Source of the DNA: Typha latifolia
Taxonomy: Eukaryota > Streptophyta > Magnoliopsida > Poales > Typhaceae
Length of the DNA stretch: 64,000 bases
NCBI GenBank assembly: GCA_019914945.1
Contig: CM034104.1
Coordinates: 126,501 to 190,500 of the forward strand
Reading direction: 5' to 3'
The notes beneath the pieces are model-generated. The model saw only the letters and a list, made by a program, of their open reading frames with translations, did not search any database and was not told the DNA's origin. Position 1 is the first letter of the stretch. The number at the start of each line of letters is the position of its first letter. This document shows positions 14,000 to 30,024 of the stretch, piece after piece. The translations under genes were made by a program, and so were the position numbers.

Positions 14000-15421
14000 T
14001 CACGGTGCAGTCAACGGTAACTTGTCCTCGGACACGTAGGACATGAACTCTTCGTCCTGGAGCAGCGCCGCCATGGTCTCCGGCGCGAGGCACACTTCCA
14101 AATCCACGCTCCCTCCCCCTTCCCTCCCAGGGAACGCCGACATCTTCCCGTCGAACTTATTCGCCTTCCCGCTCCGCACCGCCAAGGGGGGGCCCCATCC
14201 GAAGTCGTTTCCCTCGTACACGGGGAAACGGTGAGAGCTCCCCATCGTGATTCCCGCCCCGTCTGGATTCCCCAGAGGGAAGCACCGGGGTGCCGCCTCC
14301 CATTCTTCCACCGCGCTCCGCACTGTCGCGTCCCCGTGCGACGCCACGTTCTCGTGCAGAAGTGCTGCCGACGAAGGTAGATCCTTGCCGACCACCTCTC
14401 CCACCGCCGCACGCGTCGCCACGCTCTGGATGGCGTTCCCGAAGTAGTCCGCCGCCACGCGTGGGGAGACACGGTGCCGGCAGTTGACCGCCATGCGGAA
14501 GGTCGTCGTCGCGTCCGCCGCCAGCCATTTGCGCCCACGTGTTACCGAGCGCCACAGCAGCGCGCATAGAGACTGGAACGAGGAGATCTCCGTTGCCGCC
14601 CTTCTGGGGTCGTGGGCCAGCTTCCCGTAGATCTCGCCGTTCTGTTCGGCTCCGATGGCGAGCTTGATCTTGGGCCACCGGTTTGCCCTCGACTTGAGAT
14701 CCTGCATAGCCTCGCGGCTGAAGTGGAAGAACCGCTCTCGCAGCGGTGTGTTTACCGGGAAGATGTTCTCGGGCCGCCCGCTGCCTGGGAAGCGGAGGAC
14801 AGCTTTTGAGCCGCCGAAATAGTCCCGGATACAGCTCGGCGGCTTCGGCGCGCCACCGCGGAAGAGGTCGGCCCAGGTATTGACAAAGTTCCAGAAGGAG
14901 GTGCCGTCGACGACCGCGTGGTTGACGGCGCAGCCAAGAAAGACGGCTCCGTCGTCGAGCTCGGTGAGCTGAAACGCCGCCAGGGGGCGGAAATGGCCGT
15001 CGAAGCTAAGTACACCTTCGTGGGGGAATAAAGACCTGACAATTGGAGGCACGTCGGAGGAGGAGGGGAGGAGGAGAGAGAGATTAAAACTTGGGGCGAC
15101 AGCGTGGGTGAATTCGGCGCCGGAGTCGTTGCAAGATATCATAATTCGGCCGTCGGGAAGAGTGACGAGGCGCCCGGCGAGGGCGGGGAAGAGAGAGAGG
15201 GAGAGGGAAAGGGTGGACTTGAGACGAGAGATAAGGAAGTCAATGGGAACCGGAGGACGCGAGAAAAAGAGGCCTTTTTGGATATAATGGCACGATAACA
15301 TGGGAAGGTCGGAGACGGATAGTCTTATATCTTCGATAGTGGTGGTAGAATCCGGATAAATGGTGCAGTTGGATAGAACAGTGACAGAGGAACCGAGGTA
15401 GGAGGAAAGAGATGGGGCCAT
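14000..15421 (-). CDS. BAHD-family acyltransferase (uncharacterised acetyltransferase type)
   Basis: An intact 473-residue single-exon protein, the usual BAHD length, and GC-rich relative to its surroundings. BAHD enzymes transfer acyl groups from acyl-CoA to alcohols or amines in the cytosol. The catalytic HxxxD motif is present as HAVVD at residues 168-172, and the structural DFGWG motif at 406-410 is exact. The N-terminal region (TIEDIRLSVSDLPMLSCHYIQKGLFF) resembles the clade of At3g50280-like 'uncharacterized acetyltransferases' that also contains EPS1. Substrate cannot be deduced. ATG at 15421 is the first in frame, with a TATA element about 145 nt upstream. Convergently placed with nothing on its 3' side for more than 1 kb. 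Confidence 0.92.
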   Translation of the reverse strand: MAPSLSSYLGSSVTVLSNCTIYPDSTTTIEDIRLSVSDLPMLSCHYIQKGLFFSRPPVPIDFLISRLKSTLSLSLSLFPALAGRLVTLPDGRIMISCNDSGAEFTHAVAPSFNLSLLLPSSSDVPPIVRSLFPHEGVLSFDGHFRPLAAFQLTELDDGAVFLGCAVNHAVVDGTSFWNFVNTWADLFRGGAPKPPSCIRDYFGGSKAVLRFPGSGRPENIFPVNTPLRERFFHFSREAMQDLKSRANRWPKIKLAIGAEQNGEIYGKLAHDPRRAATEISSFQSLCALLWRSVTRGRKWLAADATTTFRMAVNCRHRVSPRVAADYFGNAIQSVATRAAVGEVVGKDLPSSAALLHENVASHGDATVRSAVEEWEAAPRCFPLGNPDGAGITMGSSHRFPVYEGNDFGWGPPLAVRSGKANKFDGKMSAFPGREGGGSVDLEVCLAPETMAALLQDEEFMSYVSEDKLPLTAP

Positions 15422-19754: not shown

Positions 19755-20015
19755 CCAACGATGGCCATGCCACAGGCACAACCCGTGCAGACCGCCGGCT
19801 GGCACAGCACGTGCCGCGGCACTTGCCGGCCGTCCCGTAAGAAAAAGAGAGAAAAATGTACCACCTTGGTCTTCGCCATCGCCGCACCCGATCGCCGTCG
19901 ACGCGAGCTCGGACGAGCGGCGACAACAAGCTCGACGAGGAGATCGATGGCGAAGCTATTAGGAGGGGTGCCGTCGTGCCACGTGCCGGTACGCCGCCGG
20001 CACAGTCATCCTTGG
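19755..20015. mobile_element. GC-rich non-autonomous DNA transposon-like element
   Basis: A 261-bp GC-rich island in AT-rich surroundings. The ends are imperfect inverted repeats: left CCAACGATGGCCATGCC, right (reverse complement) CCAAGGATGACTGTGCC, 13 of 17 matching. It is flanked on both sides by TTAAAG (19749-19754 and 20016-20021), which fits a 6-bp target-site duplication. Internal palindromes such as GTGCCGCGGCAC lie near the left end. No transposase is encoded. Superfamily is uncertain because 6 bp is not a standard duplication length. Confidence 0.6.
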
Positions 20016-20021
20016 TTAAAG

Positions 20022-21545
20022 CAATTTCATGTTTACAAGAGGTAGCTAAGGCTTGGTTACCTGGAAACTGTAAACTACATAGAAAACAATTTTTAAGACA
20101 ATTTTTGCCTCAAACGGTGGTCTTCTTGTGTTGGCAGTTAAGTTTCAATAGACATGTTGCAGAAATATCTGCAGAAGAAGATAACAGAGGATCTTTCATT
20201 TAATAGAAAAGGCTTTTCTTAAGAGTTCACAGAGAACCAAACATAATATATTTAGTTGGAAAGGGATGAGGATCTAAGTTCTCTGTACAGTCTGAGATAA
20301 ATGAAAAAGCTAGTCATTAGTCATTGTGAAAGTGCCCATGAAGCCATGGGTACAGCCCCAACAATTAACTAGGAGACCGTGGTTCACAAGAACTGCGTTT
20401 AGATTAAACATTGACACTATAATTATGTTGTGAGGGAAACTTACATGGATGACAAAATAAAACCAAAAAAAAGAAAGAGGAAAGGCACTTATAACCAAAA
20501 GCTTCAGATAGCCTTTCAATGAACATGGACGCACTCAGAGATGCACCTTCCCTTAATGTATCCCACCGAGATTGTCAGGTTCAATGCAGAATGAGTTAGG
20601 AGCTAACTTAAACAGCCAGATATTGTGTACAGTTTTACCTCTGCTGATTCTCAAGGCACTTAGATGAACTGGAGTGAAGAAATATGGAAAGAAAATATCG
20701 ACTTGGTCTTCAATCTATTGAGCTCCTCCAAGACCAATTGACCATACGCATAACCCAGTGTATCTTCAACGAATTCAGACCCTATAGAATAATCAAATCC
20801 TCGAAAATCCTTGAAAATTCTCTCCATGTAAAATTATTTGTTTTCACATAGGTGGTGTCTTATCTTCCATTCTACCTAATTGTATTACAGGTGGGCTCTG
20901 AATGGTTACCTAAGTCGAACATAATTCCTTCCTCCAGACACCCTATCCTCCATCTTATGTGCTTCCTCAATCTTTTCTTCTTTATTTCTTTGATCACTTT
21001 GTTGATACTTCCTCTGAGTTGCAGATTAATCAAACAATAACTCATTCTAAAATCACCTATAACAGCCAAGAGTAGTTCCAGCAGTTGTCAAAACTTCAAT
21101 ATAGCATATTTAGAATACCGCATCTAACGCGATCACAAAGAAAAACCAGATCAAAAGAGAGAGCAACAATGTAGAAGTTGAGAAAATGTTAACCCTAATA
21201 CCAGGAAAAGAACAACAACATTTGCCTGGGATCATACTATTGCTCTCCACATAAATAGAAAGCATTTGGTCCACACAAAAAATTGACAAGATGAGCAACC
21301 GTAAGAAAACAGGGATCCAAACTCAAGAAGTAGCTTATAATCTCCATTGCATAATAAGCATGAAAGCTTACATAACAACAAGCGCATCATAAACACTTAT
21401 CTGTTAATCACTAATCGAAAACACATCGTCAGAATAGACCAACATATACACATACTAGGAGACATCAAACTCATAAAACAGAAACCTTATTCATCCATAC
21501 CTCCTCCAGGACTTGACCTTACTCATTCAGGAGAGAAGTTCCAAG
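20022..21545. other. Intergenic downstream of the SRC2-like gene
   Basis: Nothing with coding character recognised; this AT-rich interval probably includes the 3' UTR of the minus-strand C2 gene at its right end. Confidence 0.5.
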
Positions 21546-22538
21546 TCAGTAGTCAGCACGATAGTCACTGTAATCATCCCTCGTAGCCAGATCACTCTCC
21601 ACCCTTTCTGCTACCTTCTCCTCCTCATACTTGATCCCTTCTTCCAGGGCAAGACCTCCGAGAGCCCCGGCTACCGCCCCAACTGCAAGACCTGTACCCA
21701 TTCCAAATCTTCCTCCTTTTGCTCTCTGATCATAGGATGAAGACAATGGCACCGAAGCGTAGTCCACTGGCGCCGACGGGCCACTGTACCCCGATGCCCG
21801 GTCATAGTATGGTGATCTAGTCGGGGCAGGTGCTGGTGCTGGTGCCGGCGCCGGTGGCGCGGAATAATAGGGCGGCGCAGCAGATGAATAGTATCCAGAA
21901 TAGGGATCGGAATAGCTCCCGTAGGGATTATAAGGAGCGTGAGGCAAAGGAGGTGGAGGAGGGGAGAAGGTACGGTAGTCTCGAGTGGGATGCGGCGGTG
22001 CGGTGGAGTAGTAATAGCCGGAGGGAGGGGGGGCGAATTGGTAATTTGGCTCAGGAGGAGGGGCAGGCCGCTCGCGGATAGCGAGTTTGATCCGGATCTT
22101 GCCCTGGGGTCGACCCGAGGGGCGGCGGAGCTCGAGGGTCTTGATCGGATTTGTGGATCCACTGGAGAAAGATGCCTCGAGATCGATGAGGTCCTTGAGG
22201 GGAAATCGGACGGTGCCGACGAGGGGCTTGGGGGTCTCGGAGGGCTTGGAGTGGAAAACGTCGATGGTAAGGGAGAGGGAAGGGTCGTTAGAGGAGAAAG
22301 GGAGGGGAAGGTTGAGGCGCTCGTTCCAAACAGGGCGGGTGGATCCGGCGTCGTCGGGTTTGGTGGCGGCGCGACGCTCGGGATCGAGGTAGGCGACGGC
22401 GTAGGGCTTGAGGTCGCCGTGGCGCCAGTTAACGTTCTTGAGGTGCTTTGCGGAGACGACAGTGATCTCGAGATCAACGGGCTTCATAGTCGTCGCCGTT
22501 GGAGGAGGATGATGGTGGAGATGCGGAGGAGAGGCCAT
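21546..22538 (-). CDS. C2-domain protein of the SRC2 type
   Basis: An intact single-exon protein of 330 residues. A C2 domain occupies about residues 20-150 (MKPVDLEITVVSAKHLKNVN, then KPYAVAYLDP and RPVWNERLNLPLP). A Pro/Tyr-rich region with PPP and Ala-Pro repeats follows at about 155-270. The C-terminus has a Gly/Ala-rich hydrophobic segment (MGTGLAVGAVAGALGGLALEEG) and an acidic tail. This order is typical of SRC2, cold- and stress-induced proteins that bind membranes in a calcium-dependent way; Arabidopsis SRC2 activates the NADPH oxidase RbohF. The first 17 residues are His/Pro-rich and the second Met (residue 18) is an alternative start. The family is clear; function is by analogy. Confidence 0.88.
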   Translation of the reverse strand: MASPPHLHHHPPPTATTMKPVDLEITVVSAKHLKNVNWRHGDLKPYAVAYLDPERRAATKPDDAGSTRPVWNERLNLPLPFSSNDPSLSLTIDVFHSKPSETPKPLVGTVRFPLKDLIDLEASFSSGSTNPIKTLELRRPSGRPQGKIRIKLAIRERPAPPPEPNYQFAPPPSGYYYSTAPPHPTRDYRTFSPPPPPLPHAPYNPYGSYSDPYSGYYSSAAPPYYSAPPAPAPAPAPAPTRSPYYDRASGYSGPSAPVDYASVPLSSSYDQRAKGGRFGMGTGLAVGAVAGALGGLALEEGIKYEEEKVAERVESDLATRDDYSDYRADY

Positions 22539-23438
22539 CGAGAGGGATTTTGAGAAAAAAGAGTTGCGTGCGGTGGATAGAGAAAAAGACGAGCAGAGGA
22601 GGTAATTAATTTATTGATTGTCGCATTACTAATGCATTTGCCCTGATTTAGTTGATATTTTACGTGTCTACCTATAAAGTGCAACATCCAACATGTCGAT
22701 CCAGTCTTCTTTTGGTGTGGGCCGGTAAGTTAAAAATAAAAAACTAGGCTGGGCTAAACGACCATGGAAGTTTAAATATTCTGGGCCAATAAATCTAACC
22801 ATTTGAACTACTACTCTCTTTTTGGCGGACTTTGCCAGGGCTTCGCTTGTATATTTTCGAGGTCTTAATCTCCGAACATTTAGTCGGCCCGAGAAAGGAA
22901 TTGAGATATTTTTTTCTTGTTTGTGGAATTAGGAAGGGCAGAAAAGTGTCACGACTTTAGCCTAGACTTGATCCTTTAGCAGGCATAACAAAGCAGTTTA
23001 GTCCCATTTAAAGAGGAGTGTATGATATGCAGAATGCTGTCATCGAGATGAGCGAACAAACCCACTGTGACCAGGATTTGAATTTGTAAACTGAAGTGAA
23101 ACCCATTCACATCAACAACAATAATTTTGTAGCCCCCTCCCCCCCCCCTGCATCAACAATTGAAAACTGGGCAAAGATGTTTCGGATGAATTTAACCTAA
23201 AGCTTTACTCAGTCAGCCAGAACCTTTACAATTTATAAAATCAATATTTTCTCTGTGAATTCTGGAATAAATGGCATGCCAATGGAAACTAAACAAATTC
23301 TATACATCAATCTAAGCAACTTCTGTTAGAAACAAAAACCACAATCAATAGCAAACCTTCCCCAGAACATCTATTGAGTGAGAAAAACACAGCAGTTGTG
23401 GGTTGACCAGAATGAGATTGCATTAGAGCGCAAACCTC
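22539..23438. other. Promoter side of SRC2-like gene and distal end of the THIC transcript
   Basis: No gene is seen. The part nearest 22540 must contain the SRC2-like promoter (minus strand). The part nearest 23438 would be the last exon of any long, fully spliced THIC RNA. A C homopolymer tract lies at about 23134-23149. Confidence 0.5.
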
Positions 23439-23440
23439 CT
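23439..23440 (-). other. Candidate 3' splice acceptor after TPP aptamer B
   Basis: On the minus strand a tract rich in T and C (TTGTTTTGCTTTCTTCTTGG) is followed by CAG|G. The acceptor lies 24 nt beyond the 3' end of aptamer B. Plant THIC 3'-UTR switching works by regulated splicing, so an acceptor here is expected if aptamer B is active. Confidence 0.6.
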
Positions 23441-23463
23441 GCCAAGAAGAAAGCAAAACAAAG

Positions 23464-23580
23464 CAGCACGCTCCCTACGCAGGTATTACCCTGGTCAGGT
23501 TCAAAGGGACTCTCTCAGCCCGCACCAGCCTTTGTGTAGTCATCAGAGCTAGAAAGACTGATGGAGCACCCCCGGTGCCG
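23464..23580 (-). promoter_or_regulatory. TPP riboswitch aptamer B (distal copy)
   Basis: A complete thiamin-pyrophosphate (THI-box) aptamer on the THIC-sense strand. Order in the RNA: P1 5' strand CGGCAC, GGGGGTGC, a variable P3 arm, GGCTGAGA (23513-23520), AGTCCCTTTGAACCTGA, the P5 hairpin CAGG-GTAATA-CCTG (23480-23493), GCGTAGGGAG, and P1 3' strand GTGCTG. P1 is six pairs including one G-U. The P3 arm contains an internal CATCAG/CTGATG hairpin. All hallmark TPP-contact segments (CUGAGA and the P4-P5 junction) are kept. It lies about 1.7 kb downstream of the THIC stop and 367 nt beyond aptamer A. Confidence 0.93.
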
Positions 23581-23913
23581 ATTAAAATTAGCATCCGAAC
23601 AACTGAAACGTTCATACACTACCCCTACAACTCTTTTCTACTCCGACCATACGTTGTAGCTTAATTCCAAACAAATGCTAGAGAATGCATGATAGGCATT
23701 AGAAAGGAATAAATAAAGCAAAAGCAGAGTATCTAATATAGGTCGGAGTCAGCTACAAATGCCACTAACCCCTCTCCTCTTTTACAAAAGCAAATGAAAA
23801 AGGTACTCGACAAATTAGAGTGCAGGTTACTTCCCAGCCACGGTGACAGTTAGCCAGTTGCAACACTGGTGCATTTGGGAGTCAGCTACATGTAACCTTC
23901 GCTGGAGACTTTC

Positions 23914-23915
23914 CT
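23914..23915 (-). other. Candidate 3' splice acceptor after TPP aptamer A
   Basis: The minus strand reads TCTCTTTTCCTTGTTTGTGC, then TTGCTCAG|G, a good plant acceptor with a pyrimidine tract, 33 nt beyond aptamer A. Confidence 0.6.
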
Positions 23916-23947
23916 GAGCAAGCACAAACAAGGAAAAGAGAACATGC

Positions 23948-24070
23948 AATTGCACACTCCCTTCGCAGGCATTATCCTGTTCAGGTTCAAAGGGACTTTC
24001 TCAGCCTGTCCTGCCACATTTAGGCCAGATGACCCATGTTGTAGCAGATACAGGCACCCCTGGTGCAATT
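23948..24070 (-). promoter_or_regulatory. TPP riboswitch aptamer A (stop-proximal copy)
   Basis: A complete TPP aptamer on the THIC-sense strand. P1 is a perfect eight-pair helix (AATTGCAC with GTGCAATT). Then come CAGGGGTGCC, a long plant-type P3/P3a arm (GCCTGT with ACAGGC, then CTGC with GCAG), GGCTGAGA (23999-24006), AGTCCCTTTGAACCTGA, the P5 hairpin CAGG-ATAATG-CCTG (23966-23979) and GCGAAGGGAGTG. It matches the known plant THIC 3' aptamer closely. In plants, TPP binding to the single described aptamer exposes an upstream 5' splice site, giving long, less expressed THIC RNAs. About 1.2 kb separates it from the THIC stop codon. Confidence 0.97.
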
Positions 24071-24137
24071 TTTCATTACTAACAAACCCAGGAAGAATCA
24101 AAAGGAATCACAGAAGAGTAATATTGCATAAAAGTAC

Positions 24138-24143
24138 TTTATT
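24138..24143 (-). terminator. AATAAA poly(A) signal just upstream of aptamer A
   Basis: AATAAA on the THIC-sense strand, 68 nt before aptamer A. In the plant THIC model, RNA processing between the regulated 5' splice site and the aptamer gives the short, stable mRNA, so the position fits. A second AATAAA-like site (CTAATAAAAT) lies at about 24618-24627. Confidence 0.45.
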
Positions 24144-24420
24144 ACAGATGACAGAATAAGCAGACGATTGACAAACAAGAGAGTAAGGTAGAAGGTTTTT
24201 TTATTTTAAGTCATAACTTCTTACCAAAGGCCCATTCTAAGGAGTATTATCTCAGAACTTCTAGTGCTTCTTGACAGTCCAGTTCTTTTCTGCTCCCAGG
24301 ATTTATATACCTAAATATTCCTGCATGAAAGATGATAGTAACTGGATTTCAGAGAAGTTACTCTCTTGCATGAGAAGAAAAAGTTATAAGAACTTTTAAG
24401 AATGTATTACAGTAGTCTCA

Positions 24421-24551
24421 GTACAGAGTTACAGAAAGTAAGTATTCAACTAGTGCGGTATAGAGTTACAGTAGTAAGTATTCAACTAGCTGGGTAGAGT
24501 TACAGAAGGTAAGTATTCAACTAGCTCGGTACAAAGTTACAGTAGTAAGTA

Positions 24552-24553
<2 letters not shown>
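24421..24553. repeat. ~36-bp minisatellite in the THIC 3' region
   Basis: Three full and one partial copies of a unit reading approximately gtacagagttacag...aagtattcaactagctcg. Units are 35-37 bp with small differences. It lies within the 3' region that would be intronic in long THIC RNAs. Confidence 0.85.

Positions 24554-24617
<64 letters not shown>
24553..24617. repeat. (CT)n microsatellite, (GA)n in THIC RNA
   Basis: About 32 uninterrupted CT units, directly abutting the minisatellite. In THIC-sense RNA this is a long purine GA run. Confidence 0.95.
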
Positions 24618-24619
<2 letters not shown>

Positions 24620-25108
24620 TTTATTAGGATGCAAATCATACTCCAAAAAAACAGAAAGCATGACAGCTTGATATGTCATTACCACAAATCATAACAATTT
24701 CAAGTACCATTACCACAAAAAAAGTCGTGATGTGTCAAAACTATATATAAGAACAAATTAAAGCAAATTGACTTTACTGTATTCAGTTGAACAAATTGTT
24801 TCTAAGCTGCACATCTGACTGTTTCTAAGCTGCACATCTGTTATTCCTCCAAGGTCAACTGCTGACTCTAATAGGATGTTCTTACTACATGCTAACCCAA
24901 TACAAGTAATGTCAAGTCAGAGTTTATATGGAATCTGCACACTTTAGTCAATCTAATCATATTAAAATAAAAATATAATCTGCTTCCATAACACAGAAAT
25001 GACACCAAGTTTCAGGTGTTGACATGGTATAAGGCAGGTGGCACACTTCAAAGTTCAAACACACCGCAGGACATAACCTGGAATGCCTTTGTGTGTGTGA
25101 GGTGGTGC

Positions 25109-25146
25109 AGGTGCTCCTGTACCATGTCAGTACTGAGCCAGCACCT
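25109..25146 (-). promoter_or_regulatory. Hairpin enclosing a candidate regulated 5' splice site
   Basis: On the THIC-sense strand AGGTGCT (25146-25140) and AGCACCT (25115-25109) form a perfect seven-pair stem. The 24-nt loop contains ACATG|GTACAGG, a plausible donor with GT at 25122-25121. It lies in the 3'-UTR exon just after the stop-proximal intron, where plants place the TPP-regulated donor. Identity as that donor is inference. Confidence 0.5.
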
Positions 25147-25186
25147 AAATTCAGGCACATAGATGTCAACTAGTTGAGCTTTCACC

Positions 25187-25292
25187 CTGCAAATGTTCTA
25201 GCAAATAGCAAGGACTAATTCTTGAGATACTCTCATATACATATCAATGAAGAAGCATACATGCAGAGAAAAATAAGAGTTCAACAACTAAC
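25187..25292 (-). other. THIC: 3'-UTR intron of THIC next to the stop codon
   Basis: The sense strand reads TGA-AG|GTTAGTTG, so a donor lies two bases after the stop. The acceptor is TTTGCAG|GGTG, giving a 106-nt intron. A stop-adjacent intron is a known conserved feature of plant THIC; the junction is too close to the stop to be expected to trigger nonsense-mediated decay. Confidence 0.8.
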
Positions 25293-25294
25293 CT

Positions 25295-28931
<3,637 letters not shown>

Positions 28932-29704
28932 CTAGAAAAAATAATAATGCCGAATGATGCATAAATTATATAAACATGTATCAAGCACGTCGAACTATGT
29001 ATACAAAATATGACTGGATAAAAATTCTTGAGAGAGCTTAAAAGGAAGAGAGTTATGTCGCACACGCATGTCAACTTTGAATAATTCTTCAACACATTAC
29101 AGAAATAATGAGCTGAAAATGGGGATTTTTTTTAAAGAAACCTCACCCAGTAAATTGAGAAGCAATCAAATTATTAGTAGTTTTTACTTGCGAAAACTTT
29201 CATATAGAGCATCTGCCTCCTCCAAGTTTGACATGATAAAATAAATTCTTCCAAGATCGTTCTTTGTGGCGCCAATGTGTCCTTCCACAACTTCATATGG
29301 ACCACGAAAGGGGGAGAAAAAACTAGTTTGATATCACATTATCGTTGTTCAGAGTTTTCGATTCACCAGTGTGACCTGAAACCTTATCTCTGAGCTCAAA
29401 ATTTACTGTAACTTCTTCAATGAGACCCTCATCTACACCAAAAGGACGATTGCGTCCTTATTGAGTTATCTCCATAGTTTAATCATCGTTTGCGTATTAT
29501 TTCTTATACAAATGCATCAATCAAAATACGATAACTGATGAGAGCGCACCGTCTTCATATTAGAGAACAGCAAATCGTTGCAACACGTATTCTACATCAG
29601 AAATGTATGACCAAATAGAAGTTTTTTTATAGAAAAAAGGAAGAGAAAAGATACAGAGAAGACTATGATCGCAGAGAGATGGATGGCGTCCAGATAAAAG
29701 GTAC
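28932..29704 (-). other. THIC: 5'-UTR intron of THIC
   Basis: The donor GCATAG|GTACC follows a short leader, and the acceptor TTTTTTCTAG lies ten bases before the start codon. It is 773 nt and AT-rich. Splicing is inferred from consensus only. Confidence 0.65.
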
Positions 29705-29784
29705 CTATGCTCTTTCTCCCCGATCAATCTTATCGCAACCGGATAGCCCTCGAACGAGTGAGTGAACGGGGAGGAAGACGGAGG

Positions 29785-29792
29785 TATTTATA
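29785..29792 (-). promoter_or_regulatory. THIC: TATA box of THIC
   Basis: Reads TATAAATA on the minus strand, placing the transcript start near 29755-29765, just upstream of the leader exon that ends at 29705. Confidence 0.7.
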
Positions 29793-30024
29793 GGCCTTCG
29801 CTCTTCCACACTATCGATTCTCCCGATGGGAACCTCTTATTGTCACCCGTGGTTTTCCTTATTCCGGCTTCGTTTCTTTAGCCCGCTGGTTCATACACCC
29901 TGAGCGGCTGGATCGATGGGTAGGTTGTTCATTGGACGGTTGATATGACGTGGAGGATAAGAGTACCGAAGATGAGGAGTAAGTGTATCAAAAGATATTT
30001 GGCGAAAAGATGCCCACTCGGAGG

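Follow-up and report, generated by a model that had tools for sequence, protein, structure and literature searches.

Plant THIC genes are usually described with a single TPP aptamer. In the published mechanism, a donor site in the 3'-UTR is masked by the empty aptamer, and a processing site lies within the intron (PMC10226581; PMC5853225 for cassava). The cassava work, where it deals with the spliced type III THIC RNA, describes a transcript from which 7 nt of the aptamer are missing (PMC5853225). In oil palm, an intronic position was also assigned to the THIC aptamer, and the account given there of motif searches shows web tools disagreeing on how many TPP motifs plant THIC genes contain (PMC7390266). 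Since such counts depend on the tool, a tandem case in plants may have passed unremarked. Among the matches listed for open papers on TPP riboswitches, no plant case of two TPP aptamers was found.

Pairs of aptamers are described in other systems. Bacterial tandem TPP riboswitches carry two TPP aptamers per gene or operon (PMC2258182; PMC12452182), and each aptamer appears to run an expression platform of its own, so that the compound switch becomes more digital (PMC2258182). In the oomycete Saprolegnia, the NMT1 gene has two TPP aptamers, thought to stem from a duplication (PMC5882874). Finally, glycine tandem riboswitches also combine, on a single RNA, two aptamers for the same ligand, but the pair regulates a single platform cooperatively (PMC2258182).

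The THIC locus of Typha latifolia studied here resembles the plant THIC switch of Arabidopsis, cassava and oil palm in its aptamer class, its gene and its place in the 3'-UTR, and in having a predicted donor and AATAAA signals upstream and a candidate acceptor in P1 of the first aptamer (PMC10226581; PMC5853225; PMC7390266). It differs from that switch by a second full aptamer, which has no P1 acceptor, and by acceptor-like sites behind both aptamers. The initial annotation had compared the locus with bacterial tandem TPP aptamers; the comparison is fair, as the part of PMC2258182 on tandem TPP arrangements describes them as a more digital compound switch. However, the bacterial pairs act from 5' leaders on transcription or translation, whereas the Typha pair lies 3' of the coding region with predicted splice-type platforms. 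Likewise, the oomycete aptamers belong to 5'-UTR introns of NMT1 and not to the 3' region of a plant THIC gene. Unlike the glycine pair, the Typha copies are 369 nt apart and each has its own acceptor-like site.

Two TPP Aptamers Downstream of THIC

The window (the whole 64-kb stretch of DNA analysed) was scanned with cmscan against all Rfam families. Two matches were over the gathering score; both are to RF00059, the TPP aptamer, and both are on the minus strand, which is that of THIC. The first, hereafter A1, extends from 24071 to 23940 (69.5 bits, E 1.3e-11) and the second, A2, from 23583 to 23454 (61.6 bits, E 1.1e-9). Each exceeds the gathering score of 54.3 and covers model positions 1-105 of 105. 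The presence of tandem TPP aptamers 3' of this plant THIC gene is thus confirmed, and the covariance scan bears out the earlier proposal of two full aptamers on the THIC-sense strand. A spacing of 367 nt had been given; measured from P1 to P1 (A1 24068-23950, A2 23580-23464), the gap is 369 nt. The P1 strands are 24068-24063 and 23955-23950 in A1, and 23580-23575 and 23469-23464 in A2.

A permissive scan of 20000-30000 did not find a third TPP match. In the assembly (214 Mb in 62 contigs, possibly incomplete), where the best candidates were scored, there was no RF00059 element beyond A1 and A2. The sequence AAATGCACCAGTGTTGC, at about 23876, was considered as a third, decayed aptamer between the two and rejected: it has no RF00059 match, and shuffled sequences were as good in 67/500 cases with strict scoring and in 41/500 with loose scoring.

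Both aptamers retain GGCTGAGA, the P4-P5 region and P1, as originally noted, and of the pairs tested in the P1, P2, P4 and P5 helices, 17/17 are standard in A1 and 17/17 in A2. Two P1 pairs are changed on both sides between the copies with pairing kept (U-A to C-G, and U-A to G-U). P3 is long in both copies, with unrelated sequences; in eukaryotic TPP riboswitches, P3 length is described as varying widely (PMC4260697). In both aptamers, the canonical fold comes close to the computed energy minimum without reaching it (-46.6 vs -49.8 kcal/mol for A1, -44.9 vs -46.1 kcal/mol for A2). When folded freely, A1 clearly beats its shuffles, none of 200 being as good, and A2 does so weakly (12/200 as good). 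As a side observation, the P5 loop of A2 contains a donor-like AGG/GTAATA at 23484-23494 (a slash marks the cut here and below); owing to a base change, the A1 loop has no GT.

The THIC Gene and Its 3' Region

The THIC coding exons are located on the minus strand at 28922-28624, 28487-28360, 27513-26687 and 25969-25295, their joins being predicted from splice consensus and open frame. Two of these exons match ThiC_Rad_SAM, with 350 and 248 bits. The predicted product of the four joined exons, 642 aa in length, is 87% identical to Magnolia THIC, and in a 21-row tree it clusters with four named grasses and one further row (SH-aLRT 98). Only one place with a THIC locus was found in the assembly (214 Mb, 62 contigs, possibly incomplete) and the 2-kb 3' region matches it once; a second copy of the gene was rejected on these grounds. 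The THIC stop codon is at 25295, and A1 and A2 both lie downstream of it on the sense strand.

A first 3'-UTR intron is predicted at 25187-25292 on the minus strand. It begins 2 nt past the stop codon, with an AG/GTTAGT donor and a TTTGCAG acceptor. It is followed by a predicted 3'-UTR exon of 109 nt (25078-25186), which ends at a donor-like CAG/GTTATG according to a donor matrix, so that the next intron would start from 25077. Four AATAAA signals occur in 25294-22539. Three of them, with first bases 24625, 24205 and 24143 (24138-24625, minus strand), fall in the interval from the donor at 25077 to A1; the remaining one, at 22615, is beyond A2. The same sequence scan of 25294-22539 found no AATAAA between A1 and A2, and long transcripts are therefore likely to include A2.

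The candidate acceptor of A1 is found in its P1, where GCACCAG (24060-24066, minus strand) reads GCACCAG/GGG, with 7 nt of the aptamer before the cut; its AG thus corresponds in position to the junction of the published type III RNA, in which 7 nt of the aptamer are lost. By its score of 0.62 this is a weak site, as 933/8298 AGs in the window are as good or better. The predicted order, donor, then three AATAAA, then GCACCAG/GGG in P1, is nevertheless the published plant THIC order. A1 thus shows, as judged from its sequence and with a predicted donor, the published layout of the plant THIC riboswitch.

The predicted regulated intron also carries several repeats: a 27-nt repeat in three copies 35-36 nt apart (24437-24534), an exact 21-nt direct repeat (24797-24840, 23 nt from start to start), and a long AG/CT microsatellite (24555-24618).

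Acceptor-Like Sites Behind Both Aptamers

The P1 region of A2, CGGCACCGGGGGTGC (23566-23580, minus strand), has no AG at the position of the A1 acceptor. At this place A2 reads CACCGGGGG, and an acceptor AG is absent from its P1. Hence A2 would be unable to repeat the switch of A1, and taken alone it fails, by its sequence, one defining feature of the plant THIC switch.

Directly behind each aptamer, 25-36 nt past it, a pyrimidine tract leads to an acceptor-like CAG/G. Behind A1 the feature spans 23914-23949 (minus strand; score 6.67, 16/20 pyrimidines), and behind A2 it spans 23439-23471 (minus strand; score 10.1, 17/20 pyrimidines). These scores come from a plant acceptor matrix, which gives the four inferred acceptors of THIC itself scores between 0.23 and 4.78. 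The AGs at 23439 (behind A2) and 23914 (behind A1) are the top two of the 186 in 25294-22500; among the 8298 AGs on both strands of the whole window, their ranks are 1st and 16th, respectively. A matrix-free search for CAG/G sites that have 16 or more pyrimidines in 20 and lack AG over a 25-nt zone gave 9 in 128 kb, two of which are those behind A1 and A2; the loosest cut-off gave 51 such sites in 128 kb. By chance, the top two AGs would lie within 60 nt behind the two aptamers, one for each, with a probability of 5e-4, in a test chosen post hoc. That these twin sites are present despite diverged flanks suggests that the working unit may be the aptamer together with its acceptor.

The two sites differ in what precedes them. 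From the GGGAG of A2 to the CAG, 30 nt contain no adenosine; the matching zone behind A1 contains three. If the acceptor-like site behind A2 is used, its branch point must therefore lie inside A2. There, a motif scan with a branch-point consensus points to CTGAC and TAAT (23486-23498, minus strand; adenosines 23495 and 23486) as branch-point-like candidates, 56 and 47 nt before the acceptor-like AG. In Arabidopsis, an unpaired branch site is reported to accompany 3' splice-site choice (PMC7784297). Following this pattern, A2 folded around TPP would be expected to close its predicted acceptor.

Small introns around each aptamer were also considered, from 24224 to 23914 for A1 and from 23769 to 23439 for A2, with donor-like scores of 6.8 and 7.0. 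Their symmetry is suggestive. They are not claimed here, because 13 sites in the region score over 5.

Age of the Duplication and Conservation of A2

The 3' cores of A1 and A2 are identical at 49/55 positions and their 5' strands at 12/15, and the P3 inserts have no detectable similarity. In strict alignments of the flanks, shuffled sequences were as good in 184/500 cases upstream and 335/500 downstream. A duplication with still visible flanks was rejected on this basis. With loose scoring, the upstream flanks were borderline (47/500 shuffles as good) and the downstream flanks again indistinguishable (422/500). The divergence in P3 and flanks also rules out A2 as an assembly duplicate of A1, and an assembly artefact was discarded for this reason.

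In simulations of flanks of this length, the trace of common origin did not disappear below about 0.6 substitutions per site. At this distance, a neutral 55-nt core would keep to 6 changes or fewer with a probability of 8e-7, a value that presupposes that the flanks were duplicated together with the aptamer; if only A2 drifted while A1 stood still (d 0.3), the probability becomes 9e-3. The P3 insert, which was necessarily copied, fits from about 0.5 substitutions per site, and the corresponding two-sided probability for the core is 2e-5. With P3 alone as the neutral standard and drift in A2 only, hence at half this distance, the probability lies between 0.13 and 9e-3, which makes this a weak test. 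Taken as sequence comparisons, these results indicate that the duplication of A1 and A2 is old, and that A2 has probably been retained by selection.

A Possible Mechanism and Its Alternatives

By analogy with the plant systems, it can be proposed that A1 is likely the known THIC switch and that A2 is a predicted second sensor gating its own downstream acceptor. We put this forward tentatively, as the preferred reading, though one with somewhat less than an even claim to being right. It would place two linked but different splice switches on the THIC 3' region, as inferred from the arrangement of the sites. At low TPP, strands of A1 would mask the donor at 25077 in the 3'-UTR by pairing with it, as the published plant mechanism and the present layout would have it. 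The intron with its three AATAAA would be retained and a short stable mRNA would result. At high TPP, A1 would fold around its ligand and the donor would be freed. Splicing to the acceptor in A1 P1, or to that just behind A1, would then remove the three AATAAA and give a long, unstable mRNA with a new junction 111 nt past the stop codon. By the usual rule, this distance is far enough for nonsense-mediated decay. A2 would act downstream of the A1 decision, as part of the long RNA, in which a P1 strand of A1 is gone. With TPP bound to A2, the branch point would be hidden and the acceptor behind A2 closed, which would favour the A1-proximal acceptors or keep a further 3'-UTR intron while TPP is high. 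In its full form, with a first sensor that picks the long unstable mRNA and a second, anciently duplicated one that keeps the next acceptor's branch point within its TPP-binding fold, the scheme is unlikely to be right in every part.

Two-step or cooperative feedback had been suggested from the sequence alone. This suggestion is partly borne out. The two complete, conserved aptamers are there, with signs of selection on both; a single cooperative or digital pair finds no support in that form. The 369-nt gap, the missing P1 acceptor of A2 and the acceptor-like site that each copy has of its own point to two serial platforms rather than to a shared one. A cooperative reading of the pair is possible but not favoured by this anatomy.

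A steeper, AND-type response would be obtained if A1 and A2 both masked the donor at 25077 when empty, so that both needed TPP for its release. The pairing of the aptamers with the donor bears on this idea. Outside the aptamer itself, the 27-nt segment that pairs best with A2 is 25125-25099, immediately upstream of the donor (-29.9), and the 27-nt partner of A1 at the donor is among its best, beaten by 1/2319 windows. For the P4-P5 region, the part of the plant THIC switch generally considered in this respect, A1 is paired better than with the donor exon by 10/2468 windows. A2 is a mediocre partner of the donor, with 180/2468 windows pairing better. Moreover, the best-window pairings are not clearly better than those of shuffles (as good in 130/300 and 153/300 for A1 and in 21/300 and 36/300 for A2), nor are full-length duplexes (123/300 and 121/300 for A1, 160/300 and 144/300 for A2), and duplex energies were therefore set aside as proof of a shared donor. 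It follows that the pairing of A1 with the donor is taken from the literature. As A2 is in addition transcribed after A1, 369 nt further on, masking of one donor by both aptamers appears quite improbable. It is also conceivable, if somewhat unlikely, that A2 is an idle or back-up copy, which perhaps binds TPP with little effect, the choice between short and long RNAs being made at A1. The lack of a P1 acceptor in A2, its lower RF00059 score and its less clear folding agree with such a role. However, the core and pairs of A2 are conserved though its flanks can no longer be recognised as related to those of A1, and it is followed by a strong acceptor-like site. A last alternative takes A2 as part of the 5' region of the gene that follows, a C2-domain ORF (22538-21546), and not of THIC, because A2 ends about 0.9 kb upstream of the ATG of this ORF on the same strand. 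It is very hard to reconcile with the other evidence: the C2 product has no evident thiamin link, an AATAAA at 22615 separates A2 from the ATG, and the genes reported to carry TPP riboswitches in plants are THIC and, in certain lineages, THI1 (PMC10226581).

A natural two-aptamer gene would let two-sensor control be tested in a plant, where a second aptamer could produce a sharper response, a shifted threshold or a different splice step. If A2 is indeed a second sensor gating the acceptor behind it, the duplication of a 3'-UTR riboswitch can give rise to a copy with a new setting, and vitamin B1 status would be read twice on one RNA. The ligand-gated hiding of a branch point inside an aptamer would then be a new plant expression platform.

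Neighbouring Genes

The C2 ORF (21546-22538) and an acyltransferase ORF (14000-15421) are both on the minus strand, about 6 kb apart. The acyltransferase of the window shares 98% identity with a protein of Typha angustifolia. In the database, the Typha angustifolia protein P0121 (826 aa) has C2 and transferase domains together; from a comparison covering the acyltransferase part, two genes may have been fused in the P0121 model.
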